Shown one piece after another: positions 1 through 22,999 of a stretch of 26,617 nucleotides of DNA. Origin of the DNA: a virus. The stretch spans positions 1 through 26,617 of IMG/VR virus record IMGVR_UViG_3300000117_008524, one strand, 5' to 3'. Both the position numbers and the translations under genes were made by a program. The notes beneath the pieces were generated by a model, which saw nothing but the letters and a program-made list of their open reading frames with translations, was not told the DNA's origin and made no database searches. Within the stretch, counting starts at the first letter, position 1. Every line of letters starts with the position of its first letter.

Positions 1-1
1 T

Positions 2-673
2 TATCTTACAAAAGATATTGGCCTTAACGAAAATATCAATTATGAGATCTTTGATTATGCCATTATTTGCACCCCAACAATGGATCACATGGAGGAAATC
101 TCCAATGCCTTAAGAGGCAATGATAAGTTAAGAATCTTATGTGAAAAGCCTCTCACAAAACACCCTTTTAAAGACGATATTCATTACTCATATTTGAAGG
201 CCTTTAAAAATATCCATATGGTCAACAATTATGATTATGCTTTTAAAAGAGCATGTAGAGACCAGTCCAATTTTGTAAATGCAACAGGGTTGACCACTTA
301 TGAGTATTACCAAACAGGGCGTGATGGCCTTTTATTTGATTGCATTCAGTTAATTAAAATGGCCAAAGCAGATATTGAGTTAAAAGGTTATGGGTGGAAG
401 TGGCAGTGTCAAATTAACGGTTGGAGGATCGACCGTAACCTTATTGATGATAGCTATTATGATATGATTGAGGACTTTATCTCAGATAAATTAGAACAAA
501 CGGATTTGGACGAGTTATTAATACTCCATAAATTTATCGGACTTGAAAATGAGCAATTTGAACAAGAATCTCTATTCGGTGACCAACGTAAGCATTGGCG
601 TGCAAGCAAGGACGACCTCAAAAAGATTTCCGGCCAAAGTTTTGCAAATTATGGGCGACCGATGCTTAGTTGA
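2..673 (+). CDS. Gfo/Idh/MocA-type dehydrogenase, partial (5' end outside window)
   Basis: The reading frame is open from the first base, so the N-terminal part of the gene lies outside the window. Near the window start, the translation shows the family's two adjacent signatures: a hydrophobic strand leading into ICTPTMDHMEEI, then a short helix and CEKPLT. In Gfo/Idh/MocA oxidoreductases these lie at the end of the NAD(P)-binding Rossmann fold, and the EKP lysine is catalytic. Only a short C-terminal domain of about 150 residues follows. Members oxidise or reduce sugar or nucleotide-sugar hydroxyls; the substrate here is unknown. The last 30 residues overlap the next gene by 95-125 bases in another frame, which is unusual for this compact genome, so the true 3' end may be disturbed. 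The neighbours (cytidylyltransferase, aminotransferase, acetyltransferase) suggest a role in making an activated sugar. Confidence 0.72.
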   Translation, partial: YLTKDIGLNENINYEIFDYAIICTPTMDHMEEISNALRGNDKLRILCEKPLTKHPFKDDIHYSYLKAFKNIHMVNNYDYAFKRACRDQSNFVNATGLTTYEYYQTGRDGLLFDCIQLIKMAKADIELKGYGWKWQCQINGWRIDRNLIDDSYYDMIEDFISDKLEQTDLDELLILHKFIGLENEQFEQESLFGDQRKHWRASKDDLKKISGQSFANYGRPMLS

Positions 674-1091
674 CCACGTTATAGGTAATGCCACCTACTC
701 AAGCAGGTATATTAACCGTCACACACATAGAACAGGGGTAAAATGCCAGGTCTTTTTATTAGTCCCTAAAGGGGATAATAGGCTTTTAGTCTCAAGACCA
801 GGAGTTACCGTTATTGAGGGTGACGAAAATGACGTTTTATCTAGATATACTAAAATGCAAGACCAGCACCCAGCGGACTTTATTTGCAGGATAACAGCTG
901 ACTGCCCCATGGTACCTTCGGCCATGATCACTAAGGCAATTATGGGGGCCGTTAAAGGCCCTTGGGATTTCATGACTAATGCTATGCCAGGGTATAGGAC
1001 TTACCCTGACGGATCTGACGTTGAGGTTATGTCAGCAAAACTCTTAGAGCACTTGGCAAAAAATGCAGTGGGTCACAAAGAGAGCATGTGA
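549..1091 (+). CDS. SpsF/NeuA-like cytidylyltransferase, N-terminal part (frameshifted)
   Basis: The N-terminal motif VQARTTSKRFPAKVL matches the nucleotide-binding signature of SpsF-type cytidylyltransferases (family pattern: QAR, two to three residues, S-x-R-x-P-x-K-x-L). Further on, DENDVLSRY and RITADCPMV match the family's conserved blocks around the metal-binding aspartate. These enzymes transfer CMP from CTP to an acidic sugar. ATG 549 gives a slightly long N-terminus; GTG 579 fits the family length better, and neither has a convincing ribosome binding site. The frame stops at 1091, just where the family expects REHV. That motif is present in the other frame at 1079-1090, so the C-terminal part is separated from this part (see the next entry). 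The gene is either an assembly error or a decayed gene. Confidence 0.7.
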   Translation: MSNLNKNLYSVTNVSIGVQARTTSKRFPAKVLQIMGDRCLVDHVIGNATYSSRYINRHTHRTGVKCQVFLLVPKGDNRLLVSRPGVTVIEGDENDVLSRYTKMQDQHPADFICRITADCPMVPSAMITKAIMGAVKGPWDFMTNAMPGYRTYPDGSDVEVMSAKLLEHLAKNAVGHKESM

Positions 1092-1288
1092 CCAATTTAC
1101 TATGGCAAGACTTCCCTGCTTGGGCATCGATAAGTCATATGTTTAACAATTATGATTTTTCAGATTTGAAATACTCTGTGGACACAGAAGAAGACTTTGA
1201 ACGCGTAAAGGATAATTATGAATCGGTTAGGGATAAGATCAAGCATTGGTGCGATCGTCATGGGCAATCAAGCGCCCATCGATTTTGA
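1088..1288 (+). CDS. SpsF-like cytidylyltransferase, C-terminal part after frame change
   Basis: This frame continues the preceding protein. Upstream of the nominal GTG at 1088, codons from 1079 read REH followed by VTNLLW, matching the conserved REHVT block of SpsF proteins. Further on, LKYSVDTEEDFERVK matches the family's LRLTVDTxEDFxxV C-terminal motif. The two frames join without a gap if one extra A is placed in the AAA run at 1077-1079, which would restore GHKREHVT. A separate start at GTG 1088 has no ribosome binding site and would cut the REH residues off. I therefore read this as the displaced 3' part of one gene spanning about 549-1288 rather than an independent protein. Confidence 0.6.
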   Translation: MTNLLWQDFPAWASISHMFNNYDFSDLKYSVDTEEDFERVKDNYESVRDKIKHWCDRHGQSSAHRF

Positions 1289-1334
1289 TTACCTAAGAAG
1301 ATCACGAGGTTATTGGGCAAAATTGTTTAACTAA
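1260..1334 (+). other. Likely displaced 5' end of the aminotransferase gene
   Basis: A 24-codon frame starts at ATG 1260 and includes IDFDYLRRSRGYW before stopping at 1334. In the +1 frame the codons just upstream of ATG 1351 read VIGQNCLTNSKNPK and run directly into the aminotransferase. GSA-type aminotransferases of surface-sugar clusters usually begin with a helix followed by a short VIxGG-xxTLSKxP segment, so the two pieces look like one N-terminus. Dropping one G from GAGGT at 1306-1310 joins them as RRSR-VIGQN. This is inference from family shape and was not tested by alignment. Confidence 0.35.
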
Positions 1335-1350
1335 CTCTAAAAACCCAAAA

Positions 1351-2481
1351 ATGCTTATTAAAGGAGTTTATCCAACCCATGCGACACACGCCAAAGGATG
1401 TCATATCTTCACAAAGGGTAATTGTAAGTATACTGATTTTATATGTGGCCTTGGAACTAATCTGCTTGGTTATGCAAATAGGGCCCTAATCGATGTAGCT
1501 CATAATGAAATGCTTAAGGGCATGTGTTATTCCATTTCATCTAGAACAGAAGTAGAGGTAGCAGAAAAATTTAGAGACGCCTTTTTTTTTGAAAAATGGA
1601 AATTTCTAAAAACAGGCACAGAGGCCTGCATGGGCGCTGTTAAAATAGCTAGGGCCTACACTAATAGGGATTTTGTTTTAACAGAAGGTTATCATGGATG
1701 GTCTAACGAGTTTATTAACGAAAAAATCACTCCTCCTGGGAAGGGCGTCCCTTACCAATCATACGTGGATAAGCTTGAACACTTGGATCAAATTAATAAA
1801 GAAATTGCATGCGTTATCGTCGAGCCTGTCCAATTAGATAACTCTCCAAAAAGAATAAAATGGTTATCTGATTTAAGGGCAAAATGTAATGAGACAGGGA
1901 CAGTCCTTATTTACGATGAGGTTATAACAGGTGGGCGCTATAAAAAAATGTGCGTCTCAAGGCACTTGGATATTAAGCCTGACCTTATTATTTTAGGGAA
2001 GGCCATATCTAATGGATTCCCTTTATCGGCCATAGGGGGATCCAAGGATCTTTTAGATGGGGACTATTTTATTAGTGGCACCTACTACGGAGAAAATGTC
2101 TCCCTAGCTGTGGCCAAAAAAGTCTTGTCTTTGCTTTTAGAGGACTCTGAGTACGACATGGAATTATTATGGGGGCACGGCCAATCATTTATTGAGGACT
2201 TTAATAGTTTATGGCCAGGGCAGCTTTACATAGCAGGCTACCCCACTAGAGGACAGTTTTTTGCTTTAGATAATAACGTTAAGCATGTGTTTTGGCAGGA
2301 GTGTGCTAAAGCGAATATTCTCTTTGGGCCTAGTTGGTTTTTTAATTTCCCTCATCTAGAAGTTGATAAAAAAGTTTTGGAAAACGTAAAAGATATTATT
2401 AGGCTTATGAAGATTAAACTTCCTAAACTCCAAGGAGAAGCACCATGTCCACCATTTTCCTCACAAAGCAGGCAGCAATAG
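1351..2481 (+). CDS. Class III PLP aminotransferase, glutamate-1-semialdehyde aminotransferase-like
   Basis: This is a fold-type I, class III aminotransferase. Visible landmarks are GLGTNLLGYAN near the N-terminus, FLKTGTEACMGAVKIAR for the PLP phosphate-binding loop, YHGW, IYDEVITG with the PLP-N1 aspartate at residue 189, and LGKAISNGFP with the Schiff-base lysine at residue 217. GVYPTHATHAKG at the start resembles the GSA-like branch found in polysaccharide and nonulosonate loci rather than HemL of haem synthesis. ATG 1351 is the first in-frame start, but conserved sequence continues upstream to about 1297, so the true start is probably ATG 1260 with a frame change between. The C-terminus overlaps the next gene by 37 bases. 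Its role is probably to transfer an amino group to a keto-sugar; the substrate is unknown. Confidence 0.85.
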   Translation: MLIKGVYPTHATHAKGCHIFTKGNCKYTDFICGLGTNLLGYANRALIDVAHNEMLKGMCYSISSRTEVEVAEKFRDAFFFEKWKFLKTGTEACMGAVKIARAYTNRDFVLTEGYHGWSNEFINEKITPPGKGVPYQSYVDKLEHLDQINKEIACVIVEPVQLDNSPKRIKWLSDLRAKCNETGTVLIYDEVITGGRYKKMCVSRHLDIKPDLIILGKAISNGFPLSAIGGSKDLLDGDYFISGTYYGENVSLAVAKKVLSLLLEDSEYDMELLWGHGQSFIEDFNSLWPGQLYIAGYPTRGQFFALDNNVKHVFWQECAKANILFGPSWFFNFPHLEVDKKVLENVKDIIRLMKIKLPKLQGEAPCPPFSSQSRQQ

Positions 2482-2666
2482 ATAGACTTGTAGAACTTAG
2501 AAAAGAAATTGTAGAGTTTAACAAAAAGCAACAAAAAGCACTTGATCAATATAATAAGATCATGAAGGAAAATTTTGGTTTTATAGAGGATGGTAAAACC
2601 ATAGATAAGCTTGATATCATCTTGCTTATTCAGAAGCTTCAAGCACAAAACCAAATCGTGGGATAA
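2445..2666 (+). CDS. Small coiled-coil protein, function unknown
   Basis: A 73-residue protein starting at ATG 2445 behind a good AAGGAG site (about 2432-2437). The sequence is charged and heptad-like from residue 10 to 45 (IDRLVELRKEIVEFNKKQQK), then a short linker, then a second amphipathic helix. It has no signal peptide, membrane segment or cysteine pair. It is sandwiched between the aminotransferase (37-base overlap) and the acetyltransferase, whose ATG follows its stop codon directly, so all three are probably translated from one message. I do not recognise a family; an oligomerisation or chaperone-like role is possible but unsupported. Confidence 0.6.
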   Translation: MSTIFLTKQAAIDRLVELRKEIVEFNKKQQKALDQYNKIMKENFGFIEDGKTIDKLDIILLIQKLQAQNQIVG

Positions 2667-3218
2667 ATGTATTTAGATGTCGTCCTAGAAAGTGACCTGC
2701 CTTATCTAAGAAATTACCGTAACATGTACCCCATAAGGCGCTGGTGCCGTCAAATGGGGCTCATATCCGAGCCTCAACAATACGGCTGGTACCAAATGAT
2801 TAATGAGGACTCCTCTATTGAAATGTTTTGCATAAGAGTCGACGATGAGGATGAGGGTAAGGTTACCTTGCCTGTTGGAGTGTGTGGTCTCACTAGCATA
2901 TCCGGCCTTCATCGTAGGGCAGAATTTAGCCTTTATATAGCGCCTGCTTTTCAACGTAAGGGTTATGCCAAAAAGGCCCTAAAAATGCTTTTAAAATTTG
3001 GTTTTGATGAGCTCGGGCTTAATATCATTTGGGGGGAGTCCTTTGAGGGTAACCCAGCTACAAAAATGTTTGAGTCTCTTGGTATGATTCACGAGGGGAC
3101 TAGGCATCAATTTTACTACAAAGAAGGTCAGTTTATTGACGCTAACCTATATTCAATTACCTCTAAAGAGTTTAATAAAAGAAATCCCAAACTAAGGATT
3201 GAGTCCAGCGATGAATGA
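2667..3218 (+). CDS. GNAT-family N-acetyltransferase (RimJ/PseH-like)
   Basis: A 183-residue GNAT domain. The acetyl-CoA pyrophosphate-binding motif A is seen as LYIAPAFQRKGYAKKAL, matching Q/R-x-x-G-x-G/A after a beta strand. It is followed by the typical strand and helix, GESFEGNPATKMFESLGM, which is the NxxAxxxxxxxGF-type motif of RimJ/RimL-like members. The N-terminus contains a WYQM motif before the central sheet, as in acetyltransferases acting on protein N-termini or amino sugars. PseH, which acetylates the 4-amino sugar in pseudaminic acid synthesis, is a GNAT of this size, and the flanking sugar enzymes make that reading attractive. Sequence alone does not separate the alternatives. 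Confidence 0.85.
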   Translation: MYLDVVLESDLPYLRNYRNMYPIRRWCRQMGLISEPQQYGWYQMINEDSSIEMFCIRVDDEDEGKVTLPVGVCGLTSISGLHRRAEFSLYIAPAFQRKGYAKKALKMLLKFGFDELGLNIIWGESFEGNPATKMFESLGMIHEGTRHQFYYKEGQFIDANLYSITSKEFNKRNPKLRIESSDE

Positions 3219-3447
3219 GGCCATATTACTTACCTTTGTGATCGGGTTAATTGTAGGCATGATCTTTGGCCTATTTGTTATAAGCTCATTAAAAAAACAA
3301 ACAAGCGTACAATCCCCCCCGCCTCCACCAAAAAAAGAGAAAAAGAGACCTAAAGTCCCCCCTGGTGTTACAGTAAATAATGACATCAAATTTTGGAGGT
3401 CTGAAAAATGCAAGGATTACGAAAGTGGGGGGCCGTCACAATTTTAG
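3211..3447 (+). CDS. Small single-span membrane protein (lysis-module candidate)
   Basis: Starting at ATG 3211, the protein has a short N-terminal segment, one clear membrane helix (AILLTFVIGLIVGMIFGLFV) with glycine zipper-like spacing, a basic stretch, then a proline run and a Lys-rich region (PPPPPKKEKKR). A TTG twelve bases upstream also fits the frame, but the AAGGA at 3194-3198 and the overlap with the preceding stop codon favour ATG 3211. The size (78 residues) and position just before a second membrane protein and an amidase suggest part of a holin or spanin set. The family is not recognised. Confidence 0.6.
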   Translation: MNEAILLTFVIGLIVGMIFGLFVISSLKKQTSVQSPPPPPKKEKKRPKVPPGVTVNNDIKFWRSEKCKDYESGGPSQF

Positions 3448-4157: not shown

Positions 4158-4198
4158 AGATACCACTGCTATTTATCTATTTTTCGCTTCTTATCTTT

Positions 4199-4592: not shown

Positions 4593-4594
4593 AA

Positions 4595-10435: not shown

Positions 10436-10465
10436 TCATCCCATAAGGCTAACCTCGTGGGATGA
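10436..10465 (+). promoter_or_regulatory. Hairpin covering the start codon of the ParB-methyltransferase gene
   Basis: TCATCCCA at 10436-10443 pairs perfectly with TGGGATGA at 10458-10465, with a 14-base loop. The ATG of the next gene (10462-10464) sits inside the right arm and the only AAGG-like site (about 10446) lies in the loop. Folding would hide the start codon, so it could control translation of a potentially toxic methyltransferase. Confidence 0.4.
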
Positions 10466-11700
10466 AAATTTTATGCAAATACGACGAACTACTTCCACTA
10501 CACAAGATTATCCCTAATCCAAAAAACCCTAACGAGCACTCAACTGACTCAACGGATTTTCTGGCCAAAAATATCGACTACCAAGGTATAAGGTGGCCAA
10601 TAATTATATCCAATAGGTCAGGGTTCATAGCGGCTGGTCATGGGAGGTTATATGCTGCCCAGCAATTAAAATACGCCTCATTCCCAGTCGTCTACCAAGA
10701 CTTTGAGACCGAAGCTCAAGAGTATGAATTTTTAGTTGCCGATAATAAATTGGCCGAATTTAGCTCAACAAATGAGGACTTGGTTTTAAAGGCCTTAAAA
10801 GATCTACCAGAAATAAAAATAGATATGCTGGCCATGCCTGGACTAGAGGACTCAATCGAGGACGATCAAGTTAAAGAGGGGCAAACAGAAGATGATGCTG
10901 TGCCTGAGGTAGAGGATAATCCTTATGGGGTTAAGAGGGGTGACATTTGGGAACTGGGTGAGCATAGGGTTATGTGTGGGGATAGCACGAGTAAAGAGGA
11001 TGTGGATAGGTTAATGGGTGGGGAGAGGGTTGATATGGTGGTAACTGATCCACCATACAACGTTGCTTTGGGAATGGATGAAACAGAAGAATCGGCCAAG
11101 GCTAGAAATAGAAGAACAGATGGACTAACTATAAAGAACGATAAAATGAGTGATTCCGACTTCCGATCATTCTTGTTACAGGTGTTTAATAACTATAGCG
11201 CCTCCTTGGTAGAGGGTGGCTCTATATATGTTTTTCATGCGGATTCAGAAGGTTATAACTTCAGAGGCGCTTTTATAGACGCAGGCCTTTTACTTAAGCA
11301 ATGTCTTATATGGAACAAGTCGACATTAGTTATGGGAAGGCAAGACTACCAATGGAAACATGAGCCTATTTTATATGGATGGAAACCAGGGAAGGCACAT
11401 AAATGGAATTCAGATAGGAAACAGACAACGGTCTTAGACTACGATAAACCATCGTCTAGTAAACTGCATCCCACTATGAAGCCTGTTGAAATGGTTCTAT
11501 ATTTCATTACGAATAGCTCAGATAAAAACTCCTCTATCCTCGACCTATTCCTAGGTTCAGGCTCAACCCTAATCGCATGCGAAAAAACCAATCGTAAATG
11601 CTATGGCATGGAAATTGACGAACACTATGTGTCAGTTATTATAAAAAGATGGGAAGATTTTACTGGGCTTAAGGCCAGACGCATCACTACGGCCAACTAA
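10462..11700 (+). CDS. ParB-N domain fused to beta-class DNA methyltransferase
   Basis: Residues 1-110 are a ParB/sulfiredoxin-like domain (IPNPKNPNEHS, then GFIAAGHGRLYAAQQL and ADNKLAEFSS). After an acidic linker, the methyltransferase domain has TDPPYN (residues 195-200), and later LDLFLGSGST with the SAM-binding FxGxG at 363-367 and a KPVEM block. DPPY preceding FLGSGS defines the beta class of amino methyltransferases (N6-adenine or N4-cytosine). This fused layout is common in phages; the target site is unknown. The enzyme would shield phage DNA against host restriction or mark it for packaging. No partner restriction gene is present. The start codon lies within a hairpin. Confidence 0.92.
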   Translation: MKILCKYDELLPLHKIIPNPKNPNEHSTDSTDFLAKNIDYQGIRWPIIISNRSGFIAAGHGRLYAAQQLKYASFPVVYQDFETEAQEYEFLVADNKLAEFSSTNEDLVLKALKDLPEIKIDMLAMPGLEDSIEDDQVKEGQTEDDAVPEVEDNPYGVKRGDIWELGEHRVMCGDSTSKEDVDRLMGGERVDMVVTDPPYNVALGMDETEESAKARNRRTDGLTIKNDKMSDSDFRSFLLQVFNNYSASLVEGGSIYVFHADSEGYNFRGAFIDAGLLLKQCLIWNKSTLVMGRQDYQWKHEPILYGWKPGKAHKWNSDRKQTTVLDYDKPSSSKLHPTMKPVEMVLYFITNSSDKNSSILDLFLGSGSTLIACEKTNRKCYGMEIDEHYVSVIIKRWEDFTGLKARRITTAN

Positions 11701-11709
11701 GGATAATGC

Positions 11710-12108
11710 GTGTCTAAAAAGAAAGAGCCACCTACTCATGACGAGCGTGGCAAATTCGCTAAAGGCAATATAATACCTAGAAAGTATGGCCTTGATCCAG
11801 AAGTGAAGACTCTAAGAGAGCATCTTAGAGCGGCCGTAATAAGCACTGCTCATGACGAGCTTTTAAGTCCTGCTAGTAGGTTTAAAGAGACCGATGTAAC
11901 CAAGCTAACCACTCTCCAATACCTAATCAAGCGTGCCGTCTCAGTGGGCAACTTTAAGTTTATTCAATATCTATTAGATCAAGCTATAGGTAGACCAATT
12001 ACCCCTATTATTGCTAAGACAGAAGGCACTCAGGCCCCTAAGACAATCATTAGGCGTCAGGATGGATCGACTATTGAATATTCGTTAGAGGATAAGAAGG
12101 AAGGGTAA
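11710..12108 (+). CDS. Small terminase subunit candidate
   Basis: The start is GTG 11710 behind AAGGA, nine bases past the methyltransferase gene. The 132-residue protein opens with a basic, Gly-containing segment (THDERGKFAKGNIIPRKYG) and continues as helices, ending in an acidic tail (IEYSLEDKKEG). The KGN segment resembles DNA-binding heads of some small terminases and DUF5681-type proteins. The position, between DNA modification genes and the large terminase about 2.5 kb downstream, supports a packaging role, but no diagnostic motif is visible. It overlaps the NeuB gene in a TAATG junction. Confidence 0.62.
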   Translation: MSKKKEPPTHDERGKFAKGNIIPRKYGLDPEVKTLREHLRAAVISTAHDELLSPASRFKETDVTKLTTLQYLIKRAVSVGNFKFIQYLLDQAIGRPITPIIAKTEGTQAPKTIIRRQDGSTIEYSLEDKKEG

Positions 12109-13049
12109 TGACTTTCATAATAGCCGAAATAGGATCTAATTTCCGATCACTCGATGATTGCATCAAAGCAATCGCCTACTCCAAGCACTGTGGGGCAAAC
12201 GCTGTGAAATTTCAACTTGCGAGTGAAGTTGAGCTTTATGGCCATGATATTGGCCTGGAAATAGATAAGCATTTCATTAAAAGAGAGTGGCTCGATCCTC
12301 TTAGGGATGAGGCCAACACTCAAGGTATTGAACTTATGTGTAGCGCCTTCTCCTCCCAGGGTTATAGCTATGTAAATGAGTATGTGACTCGCCACAAGAT
12401 CGCCTCATGTGAAAATACTGATCCCACTATTTTAAAAACAGTAGCTCATTTTAAAAAGCCAACTATTATATCGCTAGGCGACACCACAGAGTATGAAATG
12501 GATAAGATCCATGGGATATTCAAAGAGTGTCCTCTCACATTTATGTACTGCGAAGTAAAATATCCATGTAAAACACACCACTTAGAATTTATAAGCTATC
12601 TTAAAAAAAAATACGGCCATGCTGGCTTTAGCGATCACTCTACTGATTTTTCCACTATACCTATTACAGCTGCACACCATTATGGGGCATCGATCATTGA
12701 AAAACATTTCAACCCATTAGATATAGTGGGCACACCAGACGCCCCCCACTCCCTCTCTATCCCTGAGTTTTCTGGTATGTGCATGAAGATCAACAATATA
12801 GATCAACCCCCATTATTATGGCCTACTATAGGGGCCAGACCATTTAAGCGTACTGTAGTGGCCACACAAGACATTAAAATAGGTGAGGCATTCACTCCTC
12901 ATAATATTGGAGTCTATAGGTCTACCAATAGACATGCAGGGCCTAGTGCCCTAGACTATGAGGATCTAATCAAAGGCAAGGTGGCCAGCAAAAATTACTC
13001 GCAATGGAGTGCGATAGATGGCAATGGATCCACATGTAAATCAACGTGA
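12108..13049 (+). CDS. NeuB-type N-acetylneuraminate (nonulosonate) synthase
   Basis: A 313-residue NeuB-family protein with an N-terminal TIM barrel and C-terminal SAF domain. Visible are IAEIGSNF at the start, GANAVKFQLAS, HKIASCENT, GFSDHSTDF at residue 174, IEKHF at residue 197 and PDAPHSLS. These are the conserved, metal- and phosphoenolpyruvate-binding blocks of NeuB, PseI and LegI enzymes. The SAF part is seen in RTVVATQDIKIGEAFTPHNI, which caps the substrate in this family. The reaction joins phosphoenolpyruvate to a six-carbon amino sugar to give a nine-carbon acidic sugar. Which sugar is made is not determined. It sits between packaging and virion genes instead of beside the other sugar genes, and overlaps both neighbours. 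Confidence 0.93.
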   Translation: MTFIIAEIGSNFRSLDDCIKAIAYSKHCGANAVKFQLASEVELYGHDIGLEIDKHFIKREWLDPLRDEANTQGIELMCSAFSSQGYSYVNEYVTRHKIASCENTDPTILKTVAHFKKPTIISLGDTTEYEMDKIHGIFKECPLTFMYCEVKYPCKTHHLEFISYLKKKYGHAGFSDHSTDFSTIPITAAHHYGASIIEKHFNPLDIVGTPDAPHSLSIPEFSGMCMKINNIDQPPLLWPTIGARPFKRTVVATQDIKIGEAFTPHNIGVYRSTNRHAGPSALDYEDLIKGKVASKNYSQWSAIDGNGSTCKST

Positions 13050-14594: not shown

Positions 14595-16934
14595 ATGAAA
14601 ACGTCTATATTTACCCCTCACAGCACAAAGCAAGAAGAAGCAATCTTCTCAGAGAAAGATATAACCTTGTGCCTAACTGGATTACAATGGGGGAAGGGCC
14701 TATATAATAATAATTACGTTTTAACTCCTACTGGATATCGAAAAGTAAAAGATATTAAAGTAGGTGATGTTCTTTTTGACAGAAATGGGGAAAAGACAAA
14801 GGTTATGGGGGTTTTCCCTCAAGGGAAAAAAAGGGCCTATAGGATTACAACTACAGATGGGAAGGAGTTAATAACAGACTCTAGTCATATAAATATAATT
14901 ATCCCTAGGCATGGGCGTGATGAAATATTAATGACTACTAGGGAGCTTTTTTCTAGGGTTGATTTGTGGTCAAAAAGCACTAGGGCCAGAATCCCATCTT
15001 TATCAGCGCCAATTAATTTTAGTGAAAAAGAATTATATATTTCGCCTTATGCTCTTGGGTGTTTAATTGGTGATGGTGGATTAACTAGTGGAGTAAATTT
15101 AACCAATATAGACAAAGATCTTATTGGCCGATTTATTAAAGAGTTACCTAATGGATTTAATTTAACATTAAGTAATAAAATAACTTATAGGGTTACTTCT
15201 AGTGAAAGGACTAAAGAGGGTTATGGAAAGAATTCAATAACAGATGAATTACGAAGTATTGGACTCTATGGGCTAAAATCACATGAAAAATTTATTCCCG
15301 ACAAATATAAATACTCTTCCATTGGCCAAAGATTAGATCTTTTAAGAGGGTTAATGGACACCGATGGTTGGGTGGCCAAAAATAAGGCCATTGAATTCAC
15401 AACCACATCTAAACTCCTTGCGAATGATATTGTTTATCTAATCGAGTCCCTTGCAGGGAAGGCATGGATTAATGAAAAAATCCCTAAACTAAAAGGTGTT
15501 AAGTATAAGAAATGCTATATGGTTAGGTTTATCCTGAAATCATTTAATCCTTTTTATATAAAGAGGAAGGCAGATAAATATTTCATCCATGAAAATACTC
15601 AAGATAAGATTATAAAAAGTGTAGAAAAATTAGCATACAGAGAGACGACCTGTTTTAAAGTTGACTCTCTTACTTCTAGTTTTATCGCTCAAGGGCAAAT
15701 AGTCACACATAATACCACAGTAGGTGCTAGGTGGCTGTTGGCCCAAGTTTTTAAGTACGCATTCCCAGAGGCCAATTTTATTATTACGGCCCCCACTTAC
15801 AAGATTATGAATCAATCGACCCTCCCTGAGTTTTTAAAAGTCTTTGAGCCTTATGGAGAGTTTAGACGTGGGGACATGGAGTTTAAGTTAAACTGGGGCT
15901 CTACCATTTATTTAAGGACAGGGACGGATCCTGACTCAGTTGTAGGGGTAACTAATGTTTATGCTATATGGGGGGATGAGGCAGGTAAATATGGCCTCTA
16001 CTTCTGGCAAAACATAGAAGGTCGGGCAGCACTAAAAGACGCCCCTATTATGCTAACGACTACACCCTACTCACTTAACTGGTTATATAAAGAATTAGTT
16101 AAACCCTACTATGAGGAAAAAAGAGACGACTGTCTTTTCATCTCAGCTAAGTCTATCGAAAACCCTTATTTCTCTAAAAAGACCTACTATAAGCGAAAAC
16201 AAACCATGGATCCTAGAATGTTTAGGGCCATGTACGAGGGCACCTTTGAGCGCTTGGCAGGTACCGTCTATGATTGTTTTACCGAGCATGGGAATATCCA
16301 AAAACAAATAGCACCAGAAGTTCTTAACCAAATGACCTTTTATGGAGGGATCGATTGGGGTTATACGGATCCCTTTGTTTTATTAATCATGGGCGTGACT
16401 CCTAATGGAGATAGGTTTATCGTTAGCGAGTTTTATAAAACTAACCAAACGCCCGATATGATCGTGGAAATGTTAACGGCCAAAATGTCGTACTTCCCTA
16501 TGAAGCTTGTTTGGTGTGATCCAAGTAGGCCAGACATGATCGCAATGCTAAGTGAAAGGAGATTTCCAGTGACCAAGGCAAACAACGATATTATGGCCGG
16601 AATAGGTGAGGTTTATGATTGTTTTAAAAATGAAAAACTTAAAGTCCTAGAAGATTCGGCCCCTAACCTATTGGACGAAATTGAAATGTATCATTACCCT
16701 GAGCCAAAGGATCTTATGCCTGATCAGGACTCTAAAAAAGAAAAACCAGTTGACCAATATAACCACGCCATGGACGCTTTACGTTATCTCACAATGGGAG
16801 TTAAGCATATGGTAACTCATAACCAACCCCAAACTAATGTTTATGAGATTAGACCTAGACAGCAAGAACAACCTCATGAGCAGGTGGCCAGAATAAGACG
16901 CCCCTCTAGAAGGCGCAGTGAAGTATGGAGTTAG
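14595..16934 (+). CDS. terL: Large terminase subunit (TerL) interrupted by an intein
   Basis: The gene codes for 779 residues: 34 N-terminal extein residues, a 339-residue intein and 406 C-terminal extein residues, giving a 440-residue terminase after splicing. Extein features: TGLQWGK joins TTVGARW at the Walker A loop; IWGDEAG is Walker B (the DE pair acting in ATP hydrolysis); MLTTTPYSL matches the coupling motif. The nuclease domain shows GIDWGYTDP, LVWCDPSRP and YNHAMDALRY, the three metal-binding acidic motifs of a Terminase_6/RNase H-like fold. TerL cuts and translocates DNA into the capsid via the portal. ATG 14595 has no recognisable ribosome binding site and follows a nine-codon ORF (14565-14591) that stops three bases before it; coupling is possible. 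Walker A is slightly degenerate, as in many TerL. Confidence 0.96.
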   Translation: MKTSIFTPHSTKQEEAIFSEKDITLCLTGLQWGKGLYNNNYVLTPTGYRKVKDIKVGDVLFDRNGEKTKVMGVFPQGKKRAYRITTTDGKELITDSSHINIIIPRHGRDEILMTTRELFSRVDLWSKSTRARIPSLSAPINFSEKELYISPYALGCLIGDGGLTSGVNLTNIDKDLIGRFIKELPNGFNLTLSNKITYRVTSSERTKEGYGKNSITDELRSIGLYGLKSHEKFIPDKYKYSSIGQRLDLLRGLMDTDGWVAKNKAIEFTTTSKLLANDIVYLIESLAGKAWINEKIPKLKGVKYKKCYMVRFILKSFNPFYIKRKADKYFIHENTQDKIIKSVEKLAYRETTCFKVDSLTSSFIAQGQIVTHNTTVGARWLLAQVFKYAFPEANFIITAPTYKIMNQSTLPEFLKVFEPYGEFRRGDMEFKLNWGSTIYLRTGTDPDSVVGVTNVYAIWGDEAGKYGLYFWQNIEGRAALKDAPIMLTTTPYSLNWLYKELVKPYYEEKRDDCLFISAKSIENPYFSKKTYYKRKQTMDPRMFRAMYEGTFERLAGTVYDCFTEHGNIQKQIAPEVLNQMTFYGGIDWGYTDPFVLLIMGVTPNGDRFIVSEFYKTNQTPDMIVEMLTAKMSYFPMKLVWCDPSRPDMIAMLSERRFPVTKANNDIMAGIGEVYDCFKNEKLKVLEDSAPNLLDEIEMYHYPEPKDLMPDQDSKKEKPVDQYNHAMDALRYLTMGVKHMVTHNQPQTNVYEIRPRQQEQPHEQVARIRRPSRRRSEVWS
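14697..15713 (+). mobile_element. LAGLIDADG-containing intein inside terL, class-3-like
   Basis: The insertion begins with GLYNNNYVLTPTGYRKVKDI and KVGD, the block A pattern of an intein, and ends with IVTHN followed by Thr+1. Block F is TTCFKVDSL...SSFIAQGQIVTHN. The first residue is Gly, with no Cys1 or Ser1. Cys in block F and Thr before the terminal His-Asn fit class 3 inteins, which start splicing from an internal Cys. The expected Trp two residues past the block B His is Asn here (SSHIN). A homing endonuclease lies in the middle: ALGCLIGDGGL at residues 153-163 and LLRGLMDTDG at residues 249-258, each with its catalytic Asp. The endonuclease therefore looks intact. Insertion in Walker A is a common intein site. 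Confidence 0.87.
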
Positions 16935-16935
16935 T

Positions 16936-17295: not shown

Positions 17296-19131
17296 ATGGA
17301 AGAGAGAGTCCTAGAAGAGCATGAGAGTCATAGGAATAGGGATGAGCAACAAGACCAGCCTGAGATGTCTAATGCCGATAGAAAGCTTTTAAAAAGAATA
17401 GAAAAGAATTTTCATCAATCAAAACTTTATAGAGAAAAGTTTGATCATAAATGGATGGATTACTACAAAATGTTTAGAGGGAGGCAATGGAAGGAAGAGC
17501 GCCCTCCTTATAGACATAGTGAAGTGATTAACATGGTCTTTAGCGCCATTCAGTCTGTCATCCCTATTATGACCGACTCAAGACCTAGATTTGAGTACCT
17601 CCCAACAGAGCCAAGTGATAGACCATTTGCTGAGCTTATTAATCAACTGGCCGAACACGATTGGGCCAGAAATAATTGGAATTATACTGTAGCAGAATGC
17701 CTCTATGACTCGCATTTTTTTGGTACTGGCTTTAGTTCAATGAAATGGGATCCTAAGTTAGAGTATGGAATAGGTGGCATTAGATATGAGTCTAACGACA
17801 CCTTCCACTTCTATCCGACACCGAAGGTAAAAACGATTCAGGATGACGATCTATTTATAATCGCATACCCCATGAGTCTAGAAGAAATTAAAAAGCGATG
17901 GCCAAAAAAGGCCAAATACGTGAAGCCTGATATTGAGACTAATAAGTATGATCGGACCGAGCTATCCAAGATGCGCTACGTTAGCCCTACAGATCAGCTA
18001 CAGTTAATAGAAGCTGAAAGGCTTTACTCGGAAAAAGAGGGCAAAGAAGCTTTAGTCATAGAAGCTTATATCAAAGATGAGGAGATAGAGAGCGAAGAAA
18101 ATGAGAAAGTTGAAGTGGTCAAGACCGATGACGGCCTGGCCAGACAGGAAATTTCCAAGACTTTCAAGCATAGAAAAAAATATCCTGGTGGTCGTCGGGT
18201 TGTAATAGCTAATAAAGTTATCCTAGAAGATAAACCTAACGAGTACAAGGATCAGAAATGGCCCTATAGTCAGGTTAAAAATTATATAGATCCTCACCAA
18301 TTTTGGGGCATAAGTGAAGTAGAGCAATTAGAAGGGCCTCAAAAAACTTTTAATAAACTTATTAGCTTTGTTTTAGATATCCTAACAATGATGGGCAATC
18401 CTATTATTGTTATGGACACCAATACAGGCATTGATCCCGATATGGTCTACAATGAGCCTGGTCTTATTGTGACAAAAAACCCAGGATCAGAGTTTAGAAG
18501 AGAAGAGGGAGTCCAGTTACAGCCTTATGTTATTCAGATCATTGATAGGATGAAATCCTATTTTGATGATATCAGTGGATCCACCGATGTCTCTAAGGGG
18601 ATTAGTCCAACGACTGGAGCAAGTGGTTTTGCTATTGATCAATTACAAGAGGCAGCACAGACAAGGATCAGGCAAAAGTCACGCAATTTAGATGTAATGC
18701 TTAACGACATAGGACAAATGTATGTATCCAGGGTACTTCAATTTTATAATACTCCTAGGGTGGTTAGGATTACGAATAACCAGGATGCTCAACAATTTTT
18801 TAAAGTAGAATTTCAAGAGGACGATCAAGGACAAGTATTTGCCAAACGTCAAAATTTCACTGAGAATGAGTTAGGACGGCCTGTGCCCGATGGGAGTCCA
18901 GAAATCATACCTTTATCAGGACAACTTGACGTAAAGGTAGTAACTGGCTCATTATTACCATTTAGTAAGACGGCCAAAGAATCTAAGTTAATAGCGCTGT
19001 ATAGAGACGGCATTATTGATAGAGAAGAGGTACTTAAAGGCATAGACCACCCTAACTGGGAAGGCGTGCTAGAGAGAGTAACCGCTGCCGAACAGGCACA
19101 AGCTCAGGCCGCGCAAGCTCAAATCCAATAA
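17296..19131 (+). CDS. Portal protein
   Basis: A 611-residue protein, of usual length for a portal. The N-terminal helix (DRKLLKRIEKNFHQS) is followed by YYKMFRGRQW, then NMVFSAIQSVIPIMTDSRPRFE, a block characteristic of podovirus-like portals. The central part has alternating strands and charged helices (RWPKKAKYVKPD, and the acidic EEIESEENEKVEV). QLEGPQKTFNKLISFVLDIL and the SGSTDVSKGISPTTGASG loop match the stem and tunnel-loop regions. The C-terminal 15 residues are Gln/Ala-rich. It should form the dodecameric ring at one capsid vertex through which TerL moves DNA. ATG 17296 is preceded by GGAG and directly follows the previous stop codon. Confidence 0.92.
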   Translation: MEERVLEEHESHRNRDEQQDQPEMSNADRKLLKRIEKNFHQSKLYREKFDHKWMDYYKMFRGRQWKEERPPYRHSEVINMVFSAIQSVIPIMTDSRPRFEYLPTEPSDRPFAELINQLAEHDWARNNWNYTVAECLYDSHFFGTGFSSMKWDPKLEYGIGGIRYESNDTFHFYPTPKVKTIQDDDLFIIAYPMSLEEIKKRWPKKAKYVKPDIETNKYDRTELSKMRYVSPTDQLQLIEAERLYSEKEGKEALVIEAYIKDEEIESEENEKVEVVKTDDGLARQEISKTFKHRKKYPGGRRVVIANKVILEDKPNEYKDQKWPYSQVKNYIDPHQFWGISEVEQLEGPQKTFNKLISFVLDILTMMGNPIIVMDTNTGIDPDMVYNEPGLIVTKNPGSEFRREEGVQLQPYVIQIIDRMKSYFDDISGSTDVSKGISPTTGASGFAIDQLQEAAQTRIRQKSRNLDVMLNDIGQMYVSRVLQFYNTPRVVRITNNQDAQQFFKVEFQEDDQGQVFAKRQNFTENELGRPVPDGSPEIIPLSGQLDVKVVTGSLLPFSKTAKESKLIALYRDGIIDREEVLKGIDHPNWEGVLERVTAAEQAQAQAAQAQIQ

Positions 19132-19140
19132 TTATTTTAT
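19129..19140 (+). repeat. TAATTATTTTAT late-gene element, copy 1
   Basis: First of four exact 12-base copies, here starting in the portal stop codon. It is followed by an AT-rich 50-base spacer before the next gene, without a strong hairpin. Confidence 0.6.
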
Positions 19141-19188
19141 CATTTATCTTATTTCCTAATCATTGACTTATTTTAAAGAGGATTACTT

Positions 19189-19479
19189 ATGCCTGGTGAT
19201 ATGCCACAAGATCAAGCACAAGCCCCCCAACCTCAAGGTGGGGTTAAAGAGCTTGTCAGTAATGTCCATGATCAAATGGTACAATTACTTGACGTACTTG
19301 ATCAAAGTCAAGTGGCCAGTCCAGAAGATAAGCAAGTCCTTGCAAATATTTTACAGCAATATAGATCCTTTGTTGGGCAATCACTTGGAGCAGGCCCTAA
19401 AGAAGAGGGGCAAAAAGCAGGTGGTGGGGGCAATACCCCTATGGAATTTGTCGACCAAGGATCAGTTTTACCAGCATAA
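19189..19479 (+). CDS. Small Gln-rich head-module protein
   Basis: The 96-residue protein opens with a low-complexity Gln/Pro/Ala segment (DQAQAPQPQGG), then one helical domain (KELVSNVHDQMVQLLDVLDQ and DKQVLANILQQYRSF), and ends in a Gly-rich segment. ATG 19189 has AAGAGGA upstream. Its position between portal and scaffold suggests an assembly or head-completion role, but no family is recognised. Confidence 0.68.
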   Translation: MPGDMPQDQAQAPQPQGGVKELVSNVHDQMVQLLDVLDQSQVASPEDKQVLANILQQYRSFVGQSLGAGPKEEGQKAGGGGNTPMEFVDQGSVLPA

Positions 19480-19488
19480 TTATTTTAT
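19477..19488 (+). repeat. TAATTATTTTAT late-gene element, copy 2
   Basis: This copy begins in the preceding stop codon and runs into AGGA, the ribosome binding site of the scaffold gene. After AGGA it reads TTGTTTTATC before ATG, closely matching the leader at copy 3. Confidence 0.65.
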
Positions 19489-19502
19489 AGGATTGTTTTA
19501 TC

Positions 19503-20393
19503 ATGGAAGAAAATTTTGGTTTAACTGACGATCAAATCGATCAACTAGTTGGCGATATGACCGTTAACCCTCCTTCGGAAAACGAAGCACCCATGGAAGG
19601 GGCACAGTCCACTCCTACTGAGACCAATACTAATGCGCCATTCTTACGATTTAAAGCGAATGGCAAAGAGATAGAGGCCACAGAAGATCAAGTGAGACAG
19701 TGGGCATCACAGGGATATGATTACGGCCGTCTTACAAATGAATTCAAAACCAAGCAGGATGAATTCATTAGTAAGCAAAATCAGTTCAACGAAAAATATC
19801 AGTTATACCAAAAAATTGATGAGTACGCGCAATCCAACCCTGACTGGTGGTCAAGAGTTCAACAAGGCTACCAGGAAGCGCAACAAGGACAACAGGAAAG
19901 TCCTACCCCAACGGGCGACCTCCCTCCAGAAGTCCAAAATGTGTTGCAAGGATTGCAAAAAGAGATAAGCGAATTGCGCGAGTTCAAAAATGGCCTAACT
20001 CAAAAAGAAGAGCAGGCCAGAATTGAGCAAGAGGATCAAAAACTCGCAAGTGAGGTCGATTCAATCCGTCAGCTATACCCTGACCTAGATTGGACGAACG
20101 TTGATTCCAACGGAAAACACTTAGAGTTAAAAGTCCTTGAGCACGCCCAGAAGATTGGCACCAATTCTTTTAAGGCAGCATTTCGCGATTTAATGTTTGA
20201 CGACCTACTCAATCACTCAGTGAGTAAGGCCAAAGATGAGACCATCAAAACGGTTCAGCGCAATCAAAAATTAGGGCTTCTAGGTGAGACACCCGATCCC
20301 CTAAAGAAATACTTGCCTACTGAGCCTACACGTAACCAAACGTGGGACGATGTACTCAAAGAGGCCATGGAAGAGGTGGGCGTTGCTGATTAA
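19503..20393 (+). CDS. Capsid scaffolding-like protein
   Basis: The 296-residue protein has the shape of a phage scaffold: an acidic, disordered N-terminus with TPTETNTNAP, a short folded segment (LRFKANGKEIEATEDQVRQW), then long Gln/Glu/Lys-rich coiled coil (NEFKTKQDEFISKQNQF, KEISELREFKNGLTQ). The C-terminal region has a helical segment LFDDLLNHSVSKAK-like and a positively charged end (PLKKYLPTEP). It sits directly before the major capsid gene, the standard place. Scaffold proteins guide procapsid assembly and leave or are cleaved afterwards. No protease domain is visible. Assignment rests on composition and position. Confidence 0.75.
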   Translation: MEENFGLTDDQIDQLVGDMTVNPPSENEAPMEGAQSTPTETNTNAPFLRFKANGKEIEATEDQVRQWASQGYDYGRLTNEFKTKQDEFISKQNQFNEKYQLYQKIDEYAQSNPDWWSRVQQGYQEAQQGQQESPTPTGDLPPEVQNVLQGLQKEISELREFKNGLTQKEEQARIEQEDQKLASEVDSIRQLYPDLDWTNVDSNGKHLELKVLEHAQKIGTNSFKAAFRDLMFDDLLNHSVSKAKDETIKTVQRNQKLGLLGETPDPLKKYLPTEPTRNQTWDDVLKEAMEEVGVAD

Positions 20394-20416
20394 TAACAAT
20401 CAAGGAGGATCGACTC

Positions 20417-21337
20417 ATGAATTTAACATGGGATCAGGTTGGGGCGATCACGTCAAAAAAGTTTGTAAAAAAACTTGCTGACAATATATTTGACTCCAAT
20501 CCATACTTTGAACGAACTAGACGTAAGAGTTTAATGAAGCTAGATGGTGGGGACTCTATCATGGTACCCCTCAACTATGCTACACCTACTGCTAGTGGGT
20601 GGTATTCTGGCAATGACACTCTTAATATCTCAGATAATGACCAAATAACTGCGGCCCAATACGAGTGGCGACAAGCTTATACAGCTGTCTCTATTTCTCG
20701 TTTGGAAGAGATTAAAAACTCTGGGGACTCAGCTAAATTGTCTTTGGCCAAATCTAAAATGGAAATTGCTGAGAAAAACTTAGCTGATATCCTTGGTACG
20801 GCCATGTATAATGACGGCAGTGTTGCTAAAGCGCTTCACGGTCTACGTCACATTGTAGCTACTGCTAATACAGTTGGTGGGATTTCTCAATCAACTAACT
20901 CTTGGTGGCAAGCACAAGTTGATAGCACCTCTACTGTATTAACTATGTCAGCTTTACAGACACAGTACAATGCAGCTGCTATTGGCAACGATGTACCAAC
21001 AGTTGGGTTCACTACTCGTACAATTTATAATCTTTATTATAACTTGCTACAACCTGCTCAACGCTTTCAAGATAAAGACACTGCTAGAGCAGGGTTTACT
21101 AGCCTTATGTTTAATGGCATCCCGATTTTGTCAGATAGCCATTGCCCGGCCAGTAACCTTTTCTTTTTAAATGAGAATTACTTGATGCTTAAAGTGCATA
21201 AAGATGAATTCTTTAGAGATGAGCCTTTCGCAAAACCTATTAACCAAAACATCCGCGTAAGTAAGATTTTCTTTGCTGGTAATCTCTGTTCTTCAAACAA
21301 CAGAATGCACGCAAGATTATCTGCGATCGCTAGTTAG
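20417..21337 (+). CDS. Major capsid protein, HK97-fold candidate
   Basis: A 306-residue protein directly after the scaffold gene, with a strong AAGGAGGA site. It carries the elements expected of a short HK97-fold capsid protein: an N-terminal helical arm (KKFVKKLADNIFDSNPYFERTRR), a LDGGDSIMVPLNY strand, then a helix with SRLEEIKNSGDSAKLSLAKSK (spine-helix-like), a ...ILGTAMYNDGS loop and later strands around FTTRTIYNLYYNLL and FNGIPILSDSHCP. There is no obvious N-terminal propeptide, so scaffolding appears to come from the separate gene. The C-terminus is beta-rich (IRVSKIFFAGNLCS). The family match is by eye, but the gene order leaves little doubt about its role. Confidence 0.87.
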   Translation: MNLTWDQVGAITSKKFVKKLADNIFDSNPYFERTRRKSLMKLDGGDSIMVPLNYATPTASGWYSGNDTLNISDNDQITAAQYEWRQAYTAVSISRLEEIKNSGDSAKLSLAKSKMEIAEKNLADILGTAMYNDGSVAKALHGLRHIVATANTVGGISQSTNSWWQAQVDSTSTVLTMSALQTQYNAAAIGNDVPTVGFTTRTIYNLYYNLLQPAQRFQDKDTARAGFTSLMFNGIPILSDSHCPASNLFFLNENYLMLKVHKDEFFRDEPFAKPINQNIRVSKIFFAGNLCSSNNRMHARLSAIAS

Positions 21338-21352
21338 TAGGAGGATTTAATT

Positions 21353-21856
21353 ATGGCAGATATGGACACAGTATTTGACGCTTTATCTTTCGAGGAGAGC
21401 GTCTCGGCCGTAACGGCCACCAATAGTGTAGATCTTGGATCTAGACGAGTATGGAAAGGTGAGGAGTATGTCTACTGCTTCAATGCAGGGGGCTCTCAAG
21501 CTTCACCTTCTTACGGTCTTAAGATTGTAACTGGTGCTTCTGGATATTCAGTGGCCGTTACTTCTTTGACCGACACTGCTCATCCATTCGTAGGGGTTGT
21601 TAAGCATGCGACTTTAACAACTGACACTTACGGTTGGGTTATGACTAGAGGATTTGTGAGCGTTGAAAACGATGCTGATTCAACTATCACAGGTGATTAT
21701 GTTGCTCTTGCCTTATCTAAGGACGGGACATTTCACCAGGCATACCCAGTTACCGATGCTGTGGGCGTAGGGACATTCAACGTTGTTGGATTTGGCCTTG
21801 ACGTTGACACTGCTTCTGGTGGCTCTTTTTATGCCATGATCCGATCAGGTATTTAA
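21353..21856 (+). CDS. Capsid decoration or head-stabilising protein candidate
   Basis: A 167-residue, beta-rich protein just after the capsid gene, behind AGGAGG. It is rich in Ser, Thr, Val and Gly, with few Lys. KGEEYVYCFNAGGSQA, YGWVMTRGFVSVENDAD and GDYVALALSKDGTF suggest repeated small beta sheets, as in many decoration proteins. No catalytic motif or signal peptide is visible. Its location and composition support binding to the outside of the capsid, but it could be a different minor head protein. An outer protein of this kind would be a good acceptor candidate if virions are glycosylated (inference). Confidence 0.72.
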   Translation: MADMDTVFDALSFEESVSAVTATNSVDLGSRRVWKGEEYVYCFNAGGSQASPSYGLKIVTGASGYSVAVTSLTDTAHPFVGVVKHATLTTDTYGWVMTRGFVSVENDADSTITGDYVALALSKDGTFHQAYPVTDAVGVGTFNVVGFGLDVDTASGGSFYAMIRSGI

Positions 21857-21860
21857 AGTT

Positions 21861-21886
21861 AGGCAGCGTCCTGAAAGGGACTGCCT
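21861..21886 (+). promoter_or_regulatory. Intergenic hairpin with a second competing arm
   Basis: AGGCAG at 21861-21866 pairs with CTGCCT at 21881-21886, extended by TCC/GGG inside. A second CTGCCT at 21908-21913 could pair with the same left arm. There is no T run, so it is not a normal terminator. It lies in the 84-base gap between the decoration and DUF115 genes and may moderate readthrough or RNA stability. Confidence 0.45.
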
Positions 21887-21915
21887 TGTCCTAGGTAAGA
21901 CTTAAAACTGCCTCA

Positions 21916-21927
21916 TAATTATTTTAT
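21916..21927 (+). repeat. TAATTATTTTAT late-gene element, copy 3
   Basis: Exact 12-base copy that is not part of a stop codon, unlike copies 1, 2 and 4. This argues that the element is conserved for its own sake. It overlaps the AGGAG site and is followed by CTTTTATC before ATG. Confidence 0.65.
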
Positions 21928-21940
21928 AGGAGCTTTTATC

Positions 21941-22999
21941 ATGGTAATGCGTACAGTTGAAATGGACTTTGAATATATGAATTATATCCCTAAGTCCCCC
22001 ACCCCTAGAGAGAATCTTTTTAAACAAGCGTGCTCAAATGACGGTTTGACAGTTAACAGCTGGCATAAAGTCTGGGTTGGAAATGCTAAGGCCAATCATA
22101 AAAAGTATGGCCCTTTCAAAAAGAGATCCTTAGGAAATTTGTGGGGTAAGTACGCTAGGCAACCCATTATTGCCCAGGGTAGTGGCCCTAGCTTGAGAAA
22201 TAATATCAAGCTACATAGACCGACTTTTATTAGGAAGGACGTCCTAGGTAAGACTGTTGAAGTCCCTATGGAAATTCCTATTATTAGTTGTCTACACAAC
22301 TACCACTACAATGAGGATAATGGAGTACGGCCTAAGTATTATGTCTCTTTAGACGCAGGTGAGATAACCATCGATGAAATATCCAAAGGTGGTTTGAAAT
22401 CCCCCAAAGAATATCTTGAGAGCACAAAGGATAAAACGCTTATTGCCTACATAGGCTCAAGTCCAAAGCTTTTAGAAGCATGGAAGGGAGAAATCCTTTT
22501 TTTCAACTGTAGCGTCCCCGATAAGCAGATATGTAAAGAGATGAAGGCCATTGAGGATTTCAATTGCTACGTCTCAAGTGGGGGCAACGTCTTAGGGGCC
22601 TGTGTTTATATCGCTAAGGCCTTTTTTGGATGTAACCCTATTTGTTTTACTGGTGCTGATTTTTCCTTTTCTTACGCTAAAGAATTTCATCCATGGAAGG
22701 ATGAGACTTATGCGAAAGTAGGAAATGCTATGAGAGGGATTGATGTTTATGGCAACAAAGTTTTAACTTGGCGGTCATACTTTAATTTCAAATCGTTTTT
22801 CGATTGGATGGCACAAACAGTACCAGGGATTTATGTAAATGCCACAGAAGGGGGCACACTAGGTGCTTACCCCGAAGGTAATATAGCTGATATTAAGCAA
22901 ATGCCTTTGGAATATTTTATCCGAATGTATCACATGCATTGGGACATGGAAGCTCAGGCAAAAACGCCTGAAAAACCATCTAACTTCATTCTTTATTAG
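21941..22999 (+). CDS. DUF115 (Maf/MptE-like) protein, putative nonulosonate glycosyltransferase
   Basis: A 352-residue protein with the DUF115 core. PIIAQGSGPSLRNN has the GxGPSL loop at residues 80-85, PKYYVSLDAG and ...AYIGSSPKLLEAWKG follow, then SSGGNVLGACVYIAKAFFGC and ICFTGADFSFS with the conserved Asp at residue 240. This family includes bacterial motility-associated factors (Maf), which transfer pseudaminic or legionaminic acid to flagellin, and archaeal MptE, a pterin diphosphokinase. The catalytic fold is shared, so substrate is uncertain. Here it lies among virion genes, between decoration and connector genes, and the same phage has NeuB and a cytidylyltransferase. That makes a sugar-transferring role on the virion more likely than a pterin role. 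The start follows AGGAG. Confidence 0.85.
   Translation: MVMRTVEMDFEYMNYIPKSPTPRENLFKQACSNDGLTVNSWHKVWVGNAKANHKKYGPFKKRSLGNLWGKYARQPIIAQGSGPSLRNNIKLHRPTFIRKDVLGKTVEVPMEIPIISCLHNYHYNEDNGVRPKYYVSLDAGEITIDEISKGGLKSPKEYLESTKDKTLIAYIGSSPKLLEAWKGEILFFNCSVPDKQICKEMKAIEDFNCYVSSGGNVLGACVYIAKAFFGCNPICFTGADFSFSYAKEFHPWKDETYAKVGNAMRGIDVYGNKVLTWRSYFNFKSFFDWMAQTVPGIYVNATEGGTLGAYPEGNIADIKQMPLEYFIRMYHMHWDMEAQAKTPEKPSNFILY

Follow-up and report, generated by a model that had tools for sequence, protein, structure and literature searches.

Phages encoding a predicted nonulosonic acid pathway and a Maf-like transferase probably coat their own particles with sugar

Bacterial loci for flagellin glycosylation with the nonulosonic acids (NulOs) pseudaminic and legionaminic acid encode PseB, PseC, PseH, PseG, PseI and PseF together with Maf, and Maf enzymes carry out protein glycosylation in the cytoplasm. 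Among viruses, Acinetobacter prophages encode EpaA and EpaB, CTP_transf_3/reductase proteins that alter host-made pseudaminic acid on the capsule (PMC12053666), mycobacteriophages carry glycans on virion structural proteins (Freeman et al. 2023, cited in PMC12619734), and neuB reads were present in 8 of 9 uncontaminated viromes (PMC3877843, Table 1). Here we describe a set of predicted NulO genes in IMG/VR record IMGVR_UViG_3300000117_008524, a linear 26,617-base fragment of an uncultured tailed phage that was analysed over its whole length (hereafter the window), and in its relatives. The window encodes a Gfo/Idh dehydrogenase, an SpsF-like cytidylyltransferase, a class-III aminotransferase, a GNAT acetyltransferase, a NeuB synthase and a DUF115/Maf-like protein. 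All six families had been named in a preliminary description of the DNA, and the profile searches which it proposed confirmed each of them close to the position first assigned to it. Viral neuB and prophage nonulosonate-modifying enzymes were known before; a phage pathway with a Maf-like transferase, as predicted here, is apparently new. The literature searched, with partial coverage, contained no earlier description of such a pathway, and no phages that build a nonulosonate themselves and attach it to their own particles.

In comparison to the bacterial pseudaminic and legionaminic acid loci, the phages share the PseB-like, PseH-like GNAT, PseI/NeuB, CMP-transferase and Maf-like protein types, but they use a class-III aminotransferase and a short Gfo/Idh dehydrogenase without PseC (DegT) or PseG, possess the SpsF type rather than PseF, and carry these genes within packaging, head and late modules. 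Bacterial NulO clusters with SpsF and aminotransferase fused or adjacent (e.g. L306-L309 and L314) contain the same pair of SpsF and class-III aminotransferase with NeuB, and several of them also PseB or Gfo/Idh. In the sampled bacterial genomes SpsF was often fused to this type of aminotransferase in one protein of approximately 700 residues, and many of the SpsF loci accompanied NeuB, PseB, Gfo/Idh or Maf. Unlike the phages, the two of these clusters that were examined most closely (L308 and L309) additionally carry proteins of PseC-like and PseG-PseH-like appearance, and the phage aminotransferases form a clade separate from those of the bacterial clusters. Bacterial neighbourhoods from the first aminotransferase scan were discarded; they lacked SpsF and NeuB since the matches were generic HemL-like enzymes.

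Among the viral precedents, EpaA/EpaB resemble the proposal for the window phages in that a phage-encoded CTP_transf_3 enzyme acts on a NulO. EpaAB, a CTP_transf_3-aldo-keto reductase fusion plus the short-chain dehydrogenase/reductase (SDR) EpaB, is however without NeuB or Maf, and its reductase types differ; in the window, SpsF carries no reductase fusion and no SDR gene was recognised. For mycobacteriophages, the citing paper PMC12619734 describes glycosylated structural proteins and no NulO pathway. The virome study (PMC3877843) showed that viral neuB is widespread, but a pathway, synteny or a transferase is not described there.

On balance we favour the interpretation that the genes represent a phage-owned, late-expressed NulO glycosylation pathway acting on a head protein. 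This interpretation is based on the protein families, the fold of the transferase, conservation of active sites, co-occurrence, synteny, co-divergence with structural genes and one joint loss. A single-sequence scan of IMG/VR for the aminotransferase gave no matches; an alignment-based search later succeeded and retrieved 24 viral contigs with 33-49% identity. These contigs, other relatives and the window formed a gene-content set of 33 sequences, of which 32 encoded the aminotransferase, 31 the portal protein, 30 SpsF, 29 each the terminase large subunit (TerL) and GNAT, 28 each NeuB, PseB and DUF115, 27 Gfo/Idh and 25 the capsid protein, counts which are biased in that the majority of sequences were found via the aminotransferase. 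The preliminary description would have been weakened by absence of the set from related phages, and about 30 relatives do carry it: although divergent (median portal identity 41%), they share seven families in mostly the same places. Judged by gene content, the predicted pathway set is kept in this phage family almost as faithfully as packaging and capsid genes.

A second sample was anchored on DUF115, independently of the aminotransferase, and comprised 156 relatives of which 80 were kept. Here a putative decoration gene accompanied DUF115 in 76 of 80 loci, and NeuB was located upstream in 24 of the 26 loci that held TerL and enough preceding sequence; one of the two exceptions (L010 of G007) carries NeuB further upstream. 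Among the 14 contigs of at least 26 kb in this sample, NeuB was encoded in 12 and the aminotransferase in 10 (one broken). In 15 contigs the two ends overlap, in most cases by about 100-170 bp, which is what complete circular assemblies should show; completeness is less certain for G031 and G036 (short overlap, 88 bases outside the sequence used, and repeat-rich ends).

The usual operon order in the relatives is PseB, Gfo/Idh, SpsF, aminotransferase and GNAT, located after the tail genes, and elsewhere NeuB precedes TerL, followed by portal, major capsid protein, decoration gene and DUF115. Because the relatives' operon runs in this order, the four left-end genes of the window are best read as the cut end of one contiguous operon, with PseB expected just off the contig. 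The genes had been called scattered in the preliminary description; this applies to NeuB and DUF115, which lie apart in positions conserved among relatives, and not to the first four genes. In three phages (G029, G030 and G032) NeuB sits together with the operon genes, in G030 in a rearranged order. A joint loss was found in G035 (L253 and L254, an apparently complete genome with overlapping ends), where PseB, Gfo/Idh, SpsF, GNAT and NeuB were not detected by the profiles used and only an aminotransferase remnant without the catalytic lysine (L254:8140-9087) was left. Since the synthesis genes were lost or broken jointly in this phage, their assignment to one pathway is supported.

Pairwise distances of all pathway proteins correlated with portal and TerL distances (r 0.45-0.78), and in a permutation test all correlations were at the limit of 1 in 300, except that of TerL with the aminotransferase (0.01). 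In a quick maximum-likelihood search, 28 of 28 phage aminotransferases tested formed one clade with an SH-aLRT of 100; bacterial enzymes of the SpsF-linked and HemL-like kinds fell outside it. By these measures the predicted pathway genes co-diverge with the structural genes. The earlier suggestion that these genes form one working programme integrated into the phage was strengthened by the same seven families in conserved order in about 30 divergent phages, by NeuB within the operon in three of them, by the joint loss and by co-evolution with structural genes.

The NeuB/PseI-type synthase with SAF domain (12108-13049, plus strand, as are the DUF115, capsid, decoration and left-end genes below; NeuB E 3.7e-35) lies upstream of the terminase gene. 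Its profile matched the pseudaminic acid synthase 8h2c first in the PDB (E 2.4e-61), followed by SpsE and NeuB/SiaC; matches were thus to PseI, NeuB and SpsE and not to Kdo8P synthases. Positions corresponding to K53, K129, S154, Y186, H215, H236 and D247 of the meningococcal synthase 1xuu were invariant or nearly so in 22 phages, and K34, K97, E102, S122, Y152, H177, H200 and D211 of the window protein align with known active-site positions of the synthase. From this alignment the predicted active site of the window NeuB is intact. Window bases from 11842 to the end are also covered by near-identical contigs, in which NeuB shows 7 synonymous and 4 nonsynonymous changes with the frame intact. 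At least 525 NeuB-like viral loci were present in IMG/VR. Two observations concern NeuB in single relatives. Between G012 and G016, which are otherwise close, NeuB differs in 71 synonymous and 82 nonsynonymous codons and TerL is also divergent, whereas the portal gene shows only 7 and 0, a contrast that may reflect recombination at NeuB or diversifying selection on it. In G037, NeuB (11353-12321) holds an in-frame TAG, and the aminotransferase match is split within a frame of 592 residues, possibly by an insertion.

The stand-alone DUF115/Maf-like putative CMP-sugar transferase (21941-22999; Pfam MptE-like E 2.7e-15) is unchanged and intact between the window and the near-identical contigs. 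Its AF2 model, built from 48 sequences (pLDDT 92.1, pTM 0.91), retrieved the Magnetospirillum Maf glycosyltransferase 5mu5 as top match in Foldseek (E 1.5e-10), and VIA-align gave a Z of 22.2 with 3.1 A over 240 residues. Next-best structures were an archaeal MptE-type enzyme (Z 14.7) and CMP-sialyltransferases from human and Campylobacter (Z up to 9.8). The core fold is shared with 5mu5, but while 5mu5 has 632 residues, the window protein has 352 (phage range 336-370), stands alone without the flanking domains, and has capsid genes instead of flagellins as neighbours. Although a fold is no proof of function, a modelled Maf-like domain in the company of NeuB and SpsF agrees with a CMP-nonulosonate as donor.

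Directly upstream lie the two candidate acceptors, the major capsid protein (Mx8-like; 20417-21337; phrog_9953 E 9.4e-63), which also serves as landmark, and a Ser/Thr-rich protein (21353-21856), the partner of DUF115 mentioned above, whose putative function in head decoration is suggested by its position. S18 and T21 of the latter were invariant, and conserved Ser/Thr residues were listed in the major capsid protein as well, so that no single acceptor is picked out. Three features lead us to favour glycosylation of a head protein, namely the location in the late module, a fold resembling that of Maf and the constant presence of the decoration gene alongside.

At the left end, the C-terminal part of a short Gfo/Idh-type NAD(P)-dependent dehydrogenase (2-673; Pfam GFO_IDH_MocA E 2.5e-4) is cut at its 5' end by the contig edge. 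The window match is weak alone, but the protein aligns with 19 phage homologues, and 20 of 20 homologues match the family (best E 5.3e-12). It is followed by the SpsF-like cytidylyltransferase (543-1288, frame-broken; CTP_transf_3 E 1.5e-12), whose profile found the cytidylyltransferase 6oew first in the PDB and then CMP-Kdo synthetases, by a class-III (GSA/HemL-like) pyridoxal phosphate-dependent aminotransferase with conserved Lys217 (1351-2481; Aminotran_3 E 4.3e-35), and by a GNAT N-acetyltransferase (2667-3218; E 4.1e-14). The best NCBIfam model for the latter was PseH (E 2.4e-13), below its cut-off (TIGR03585, score 50.5 versus 93.1); this model matched 20 of 20 phage GNATs with a best E of 5.1e-25. 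The PseB-like dehydratase of the relatives matched TIGR03589 in 17 of 17 phage sequences (best E 1.2e-83, below the curated cut-off where a score was shown), and its best solved relative was the UDP-GlcNAc C6 dehydratase 2gn4 (E 1.9e-90).

Knowledge of the families is our basis for inferring the individual reactions, their sequence, expression late in infection and the virion as target. The PseB-like dehydratase would convert UDP-GlcNAc to a 4-keto-6-deoxy N-acetylhexosamine, on which the class-III aminotransferase, aided by the short Gfo/Idh dehydrogenase, would install an amine that the PseH-like GNAT would then acetylate. NeuB would condense the free sugar with phosphoenolpyruvate to an N-acylated nine-carbon acid and SpsF would make the CMP-sugar. 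From this donor the DUF115/Maf-like enzyme would, still in the cytoplasm, attach the sugar to Ser/Thr residues of a head protein, for which the neighbouring decoration protein and the major capsid protein are the likeliest choices. The phages would in this way probably sugar-coat their own particles.

Several observations weigh against this proposal. SpsF, and probably the 5' end of the aminotransferase, are frame-broken in this contig. The preliminary description suggested a search for missing steps, which recovered a PseB homologue in the relatives, whereas PseC (DegT) and PseG were absent from the 33 phage sequences using profiles from bacterial loci, with the bacterial loci serving as positive control. 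Since the canonical pseudaminic acid pathway is incomplete without these two enzymes, the sugar would not simply be pseudaminic acid. By gene content the predicted phage pathway is reduced or different in comparison to the canonical one; the class-III aminotransferase may replace PseC, and removal of UDP may be left to the host. Among solved structures, spermidine acetyltransferases outranked PseH for the GNAT in the PDB profile search. G007, which has overlapping ends, is without PseB and Gfo/Idh. Finally, G035 retains DUF115 without the synthesis genes, and for this reason DUF115 may have another donor or role.

The frame breaks raise the question of whether the operon is a decaying remnant in this phage, with SpsF and aminotransferase as pseudogenes and a pathway that is dead here and functional only in the relatives. 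The SpsF gene, initially described as 549-1288, is spread over two reading frames. One runs from 543 to a stop at 1091; the conserved C-terminal half (REHVT...SVDTEEDFERV) is encoded in a second frame that extends to 1288. The break adjoins an A6 run near 1057-1065. SpsF was uninterrupted in the other phage SpsF genes recovered, and an exact DNA pattern scan found no second contig spanning the break. The A-run resembles a slippery site, but a programmed frameshift was rejected as a conserved feature because relatives encode SpsF without a break. For the aminotransferase, a conserved segment (LTNSK...GVYPTH) lies in frame upstream of the ATG at 1351 without a usable start codon, and an N-terminus-like peptide was found upstream in a different frame; the gene probably begins before this codon, at an ATG near 1260, and a frame break would separate the two. 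In relatives the genes are intact. Both breaks, which fall within about 300 bp, lie beside A-runs less than 1.4 kb from the contig end. Since they adjoin A-runs near a contig end, mutation or decay and sequencing or assembly error are both possible causes. Two breaks in such proximity, and G035 as an example of loss of the set within the clade, speak for decay; the location of the breaks, on the other hand, is typical of sequencing or assembly errors, and both the window and the near-identical contigs have undamaged NeuB and DUF115 genes. Disrupted active sites had been named in the preliminary description as evidence against the set, and in this respect NeuB retains its residues while SpsF is affected by its frame break. 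We regard decay as an unlikely explanation, although one to be taken seriously.

The main rival to virion glycosylation holds that the same pathway makes a CMP-nonulosonate which goes onto the host surface (lipopolysaccharide, capsule or flagellin) during lysogeny or infection, thereby blocking superinfection or altering a receptor. The EpaA/EpaB precedent on the Acinetobacter capsule (PMC12053666) supports such a role, as do an integrase-like tyrosine recombinase in G007 (judged by eye), the location of the operon after the tail genes and outside the head module, and the presence of Maf in some of the bacterial counterpart loci. However, the transferase is Maf-like and encoded inside the head module with its near-constant decoration partner, and no integrase was recognised in the window and other relatives with the G007 profile. 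A function on the host surface seems rather improbable to us, more so than decay. A search for the host via prophages found no phage-type DUF115 in approximately 1180 genomes of three phyla, a result that is uninformative as it was without positive control. Among isolated phages, a search for carriers of the set gave only two weak matches for NeuB and none for DUF115, and the aminotransferase matches were generic, from bacterial-type or host-like records.

Alternatively, the enzymes could follow the oxidise-transaminate-acetylate scheme known from WbpB/WbpE/WbpD or KdnB/KdnA. Their product would then be an amino-sugar nucleotide or a sugar resembling 8-amino-Kdo, destined for DNA or some other target, rather than a NulO of the pseudaminic type. 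In this direction point the AF2 model of a Gfo/Idh homologue (pLDDT 95), with the UDP-GlcNAcA dehydrogenase WlbA/WbpB as its top structural match, the CMP-Kdo synthetases among the SpsF matches and the missing PseC and PseG. The NeuB matches described above, without Kdo8P synthases, argue against it, and the presence of a PseB-like dehydratase and of a PseH-like GNAT suggests a 6-deoxy-diamino NulO; we consider this alternative somewhat less probable still than host-surface modification. That the genes are independent passengers which landed in the phage by chance is highly implausible, for although bacterial homologues exist for each family, clade-wide co-conservation, single origin, synteny and correlated loss contradict it.

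Returning to virion glycosylation, the proposal can be extended to the whole clade of tailed phages. A reduced pathway for a nine-carbon acidic sugar, lacking PseG and with a class-III aminotransferase for PseC, would then be a core trait inherited with the packaging genes, together with a stand-alone Maf-like enzyme for glycosylation of the phage's own capsid or decoration protein, a wider claim that we advance tentatively and to which we give slightly less than an even chance. Were this correct, members of a widespread phage group would come equipped with sialic-acid-like virion coats, with bearing on host recognition, particle charge and stability, evasion of immunity and predators, and competition between phages. 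The small Maf-like transferases and the compact NulO pathway might then also be usable for glycoengineering. Apparently complete relatives (e.g. G036, G033 and G043) make the proposal directly testable.

A second type of phage NulO cassette is suggested by G001-G003 (L028-L033, e.g. L031:5749-10233). These sequences have a distantly related capsid protein and a different cassette of NeuB, a CMP-transferase-like protein, a DegT-type aminotransferase and an SDR, the families other than NeuB being judged by eye.

The assignment of the window to a tailed phage is based on profile searches, in which its portal, major capsid, terminase and tail-type genes matched phage families. Its capsid protein is approximately 31% identical to those of the Myxococcus phages Mx8 and Mx9 and Stenotrophomonas phage BUCT555. 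The terminase large subunit (14595-16934) is interrupted at its Walker A motif by a LAGLIDADG segment that resembles an intein (approximately residues 35-376), and TerL of G007 aligns to window TerL residues 6-34 and 377-779. The segment ends with HN before a Thr; its first residue is apparently Gly, which is unusual for an intein. The window further encodes an adenine-specific DNA methyltransferase fused to a ParB-like domain (10462-11700), and in G007 a collagen-like protein of 522 residues with Gly-X-Y repeats (18915-20480) is encoded directly upstream of the terminase.

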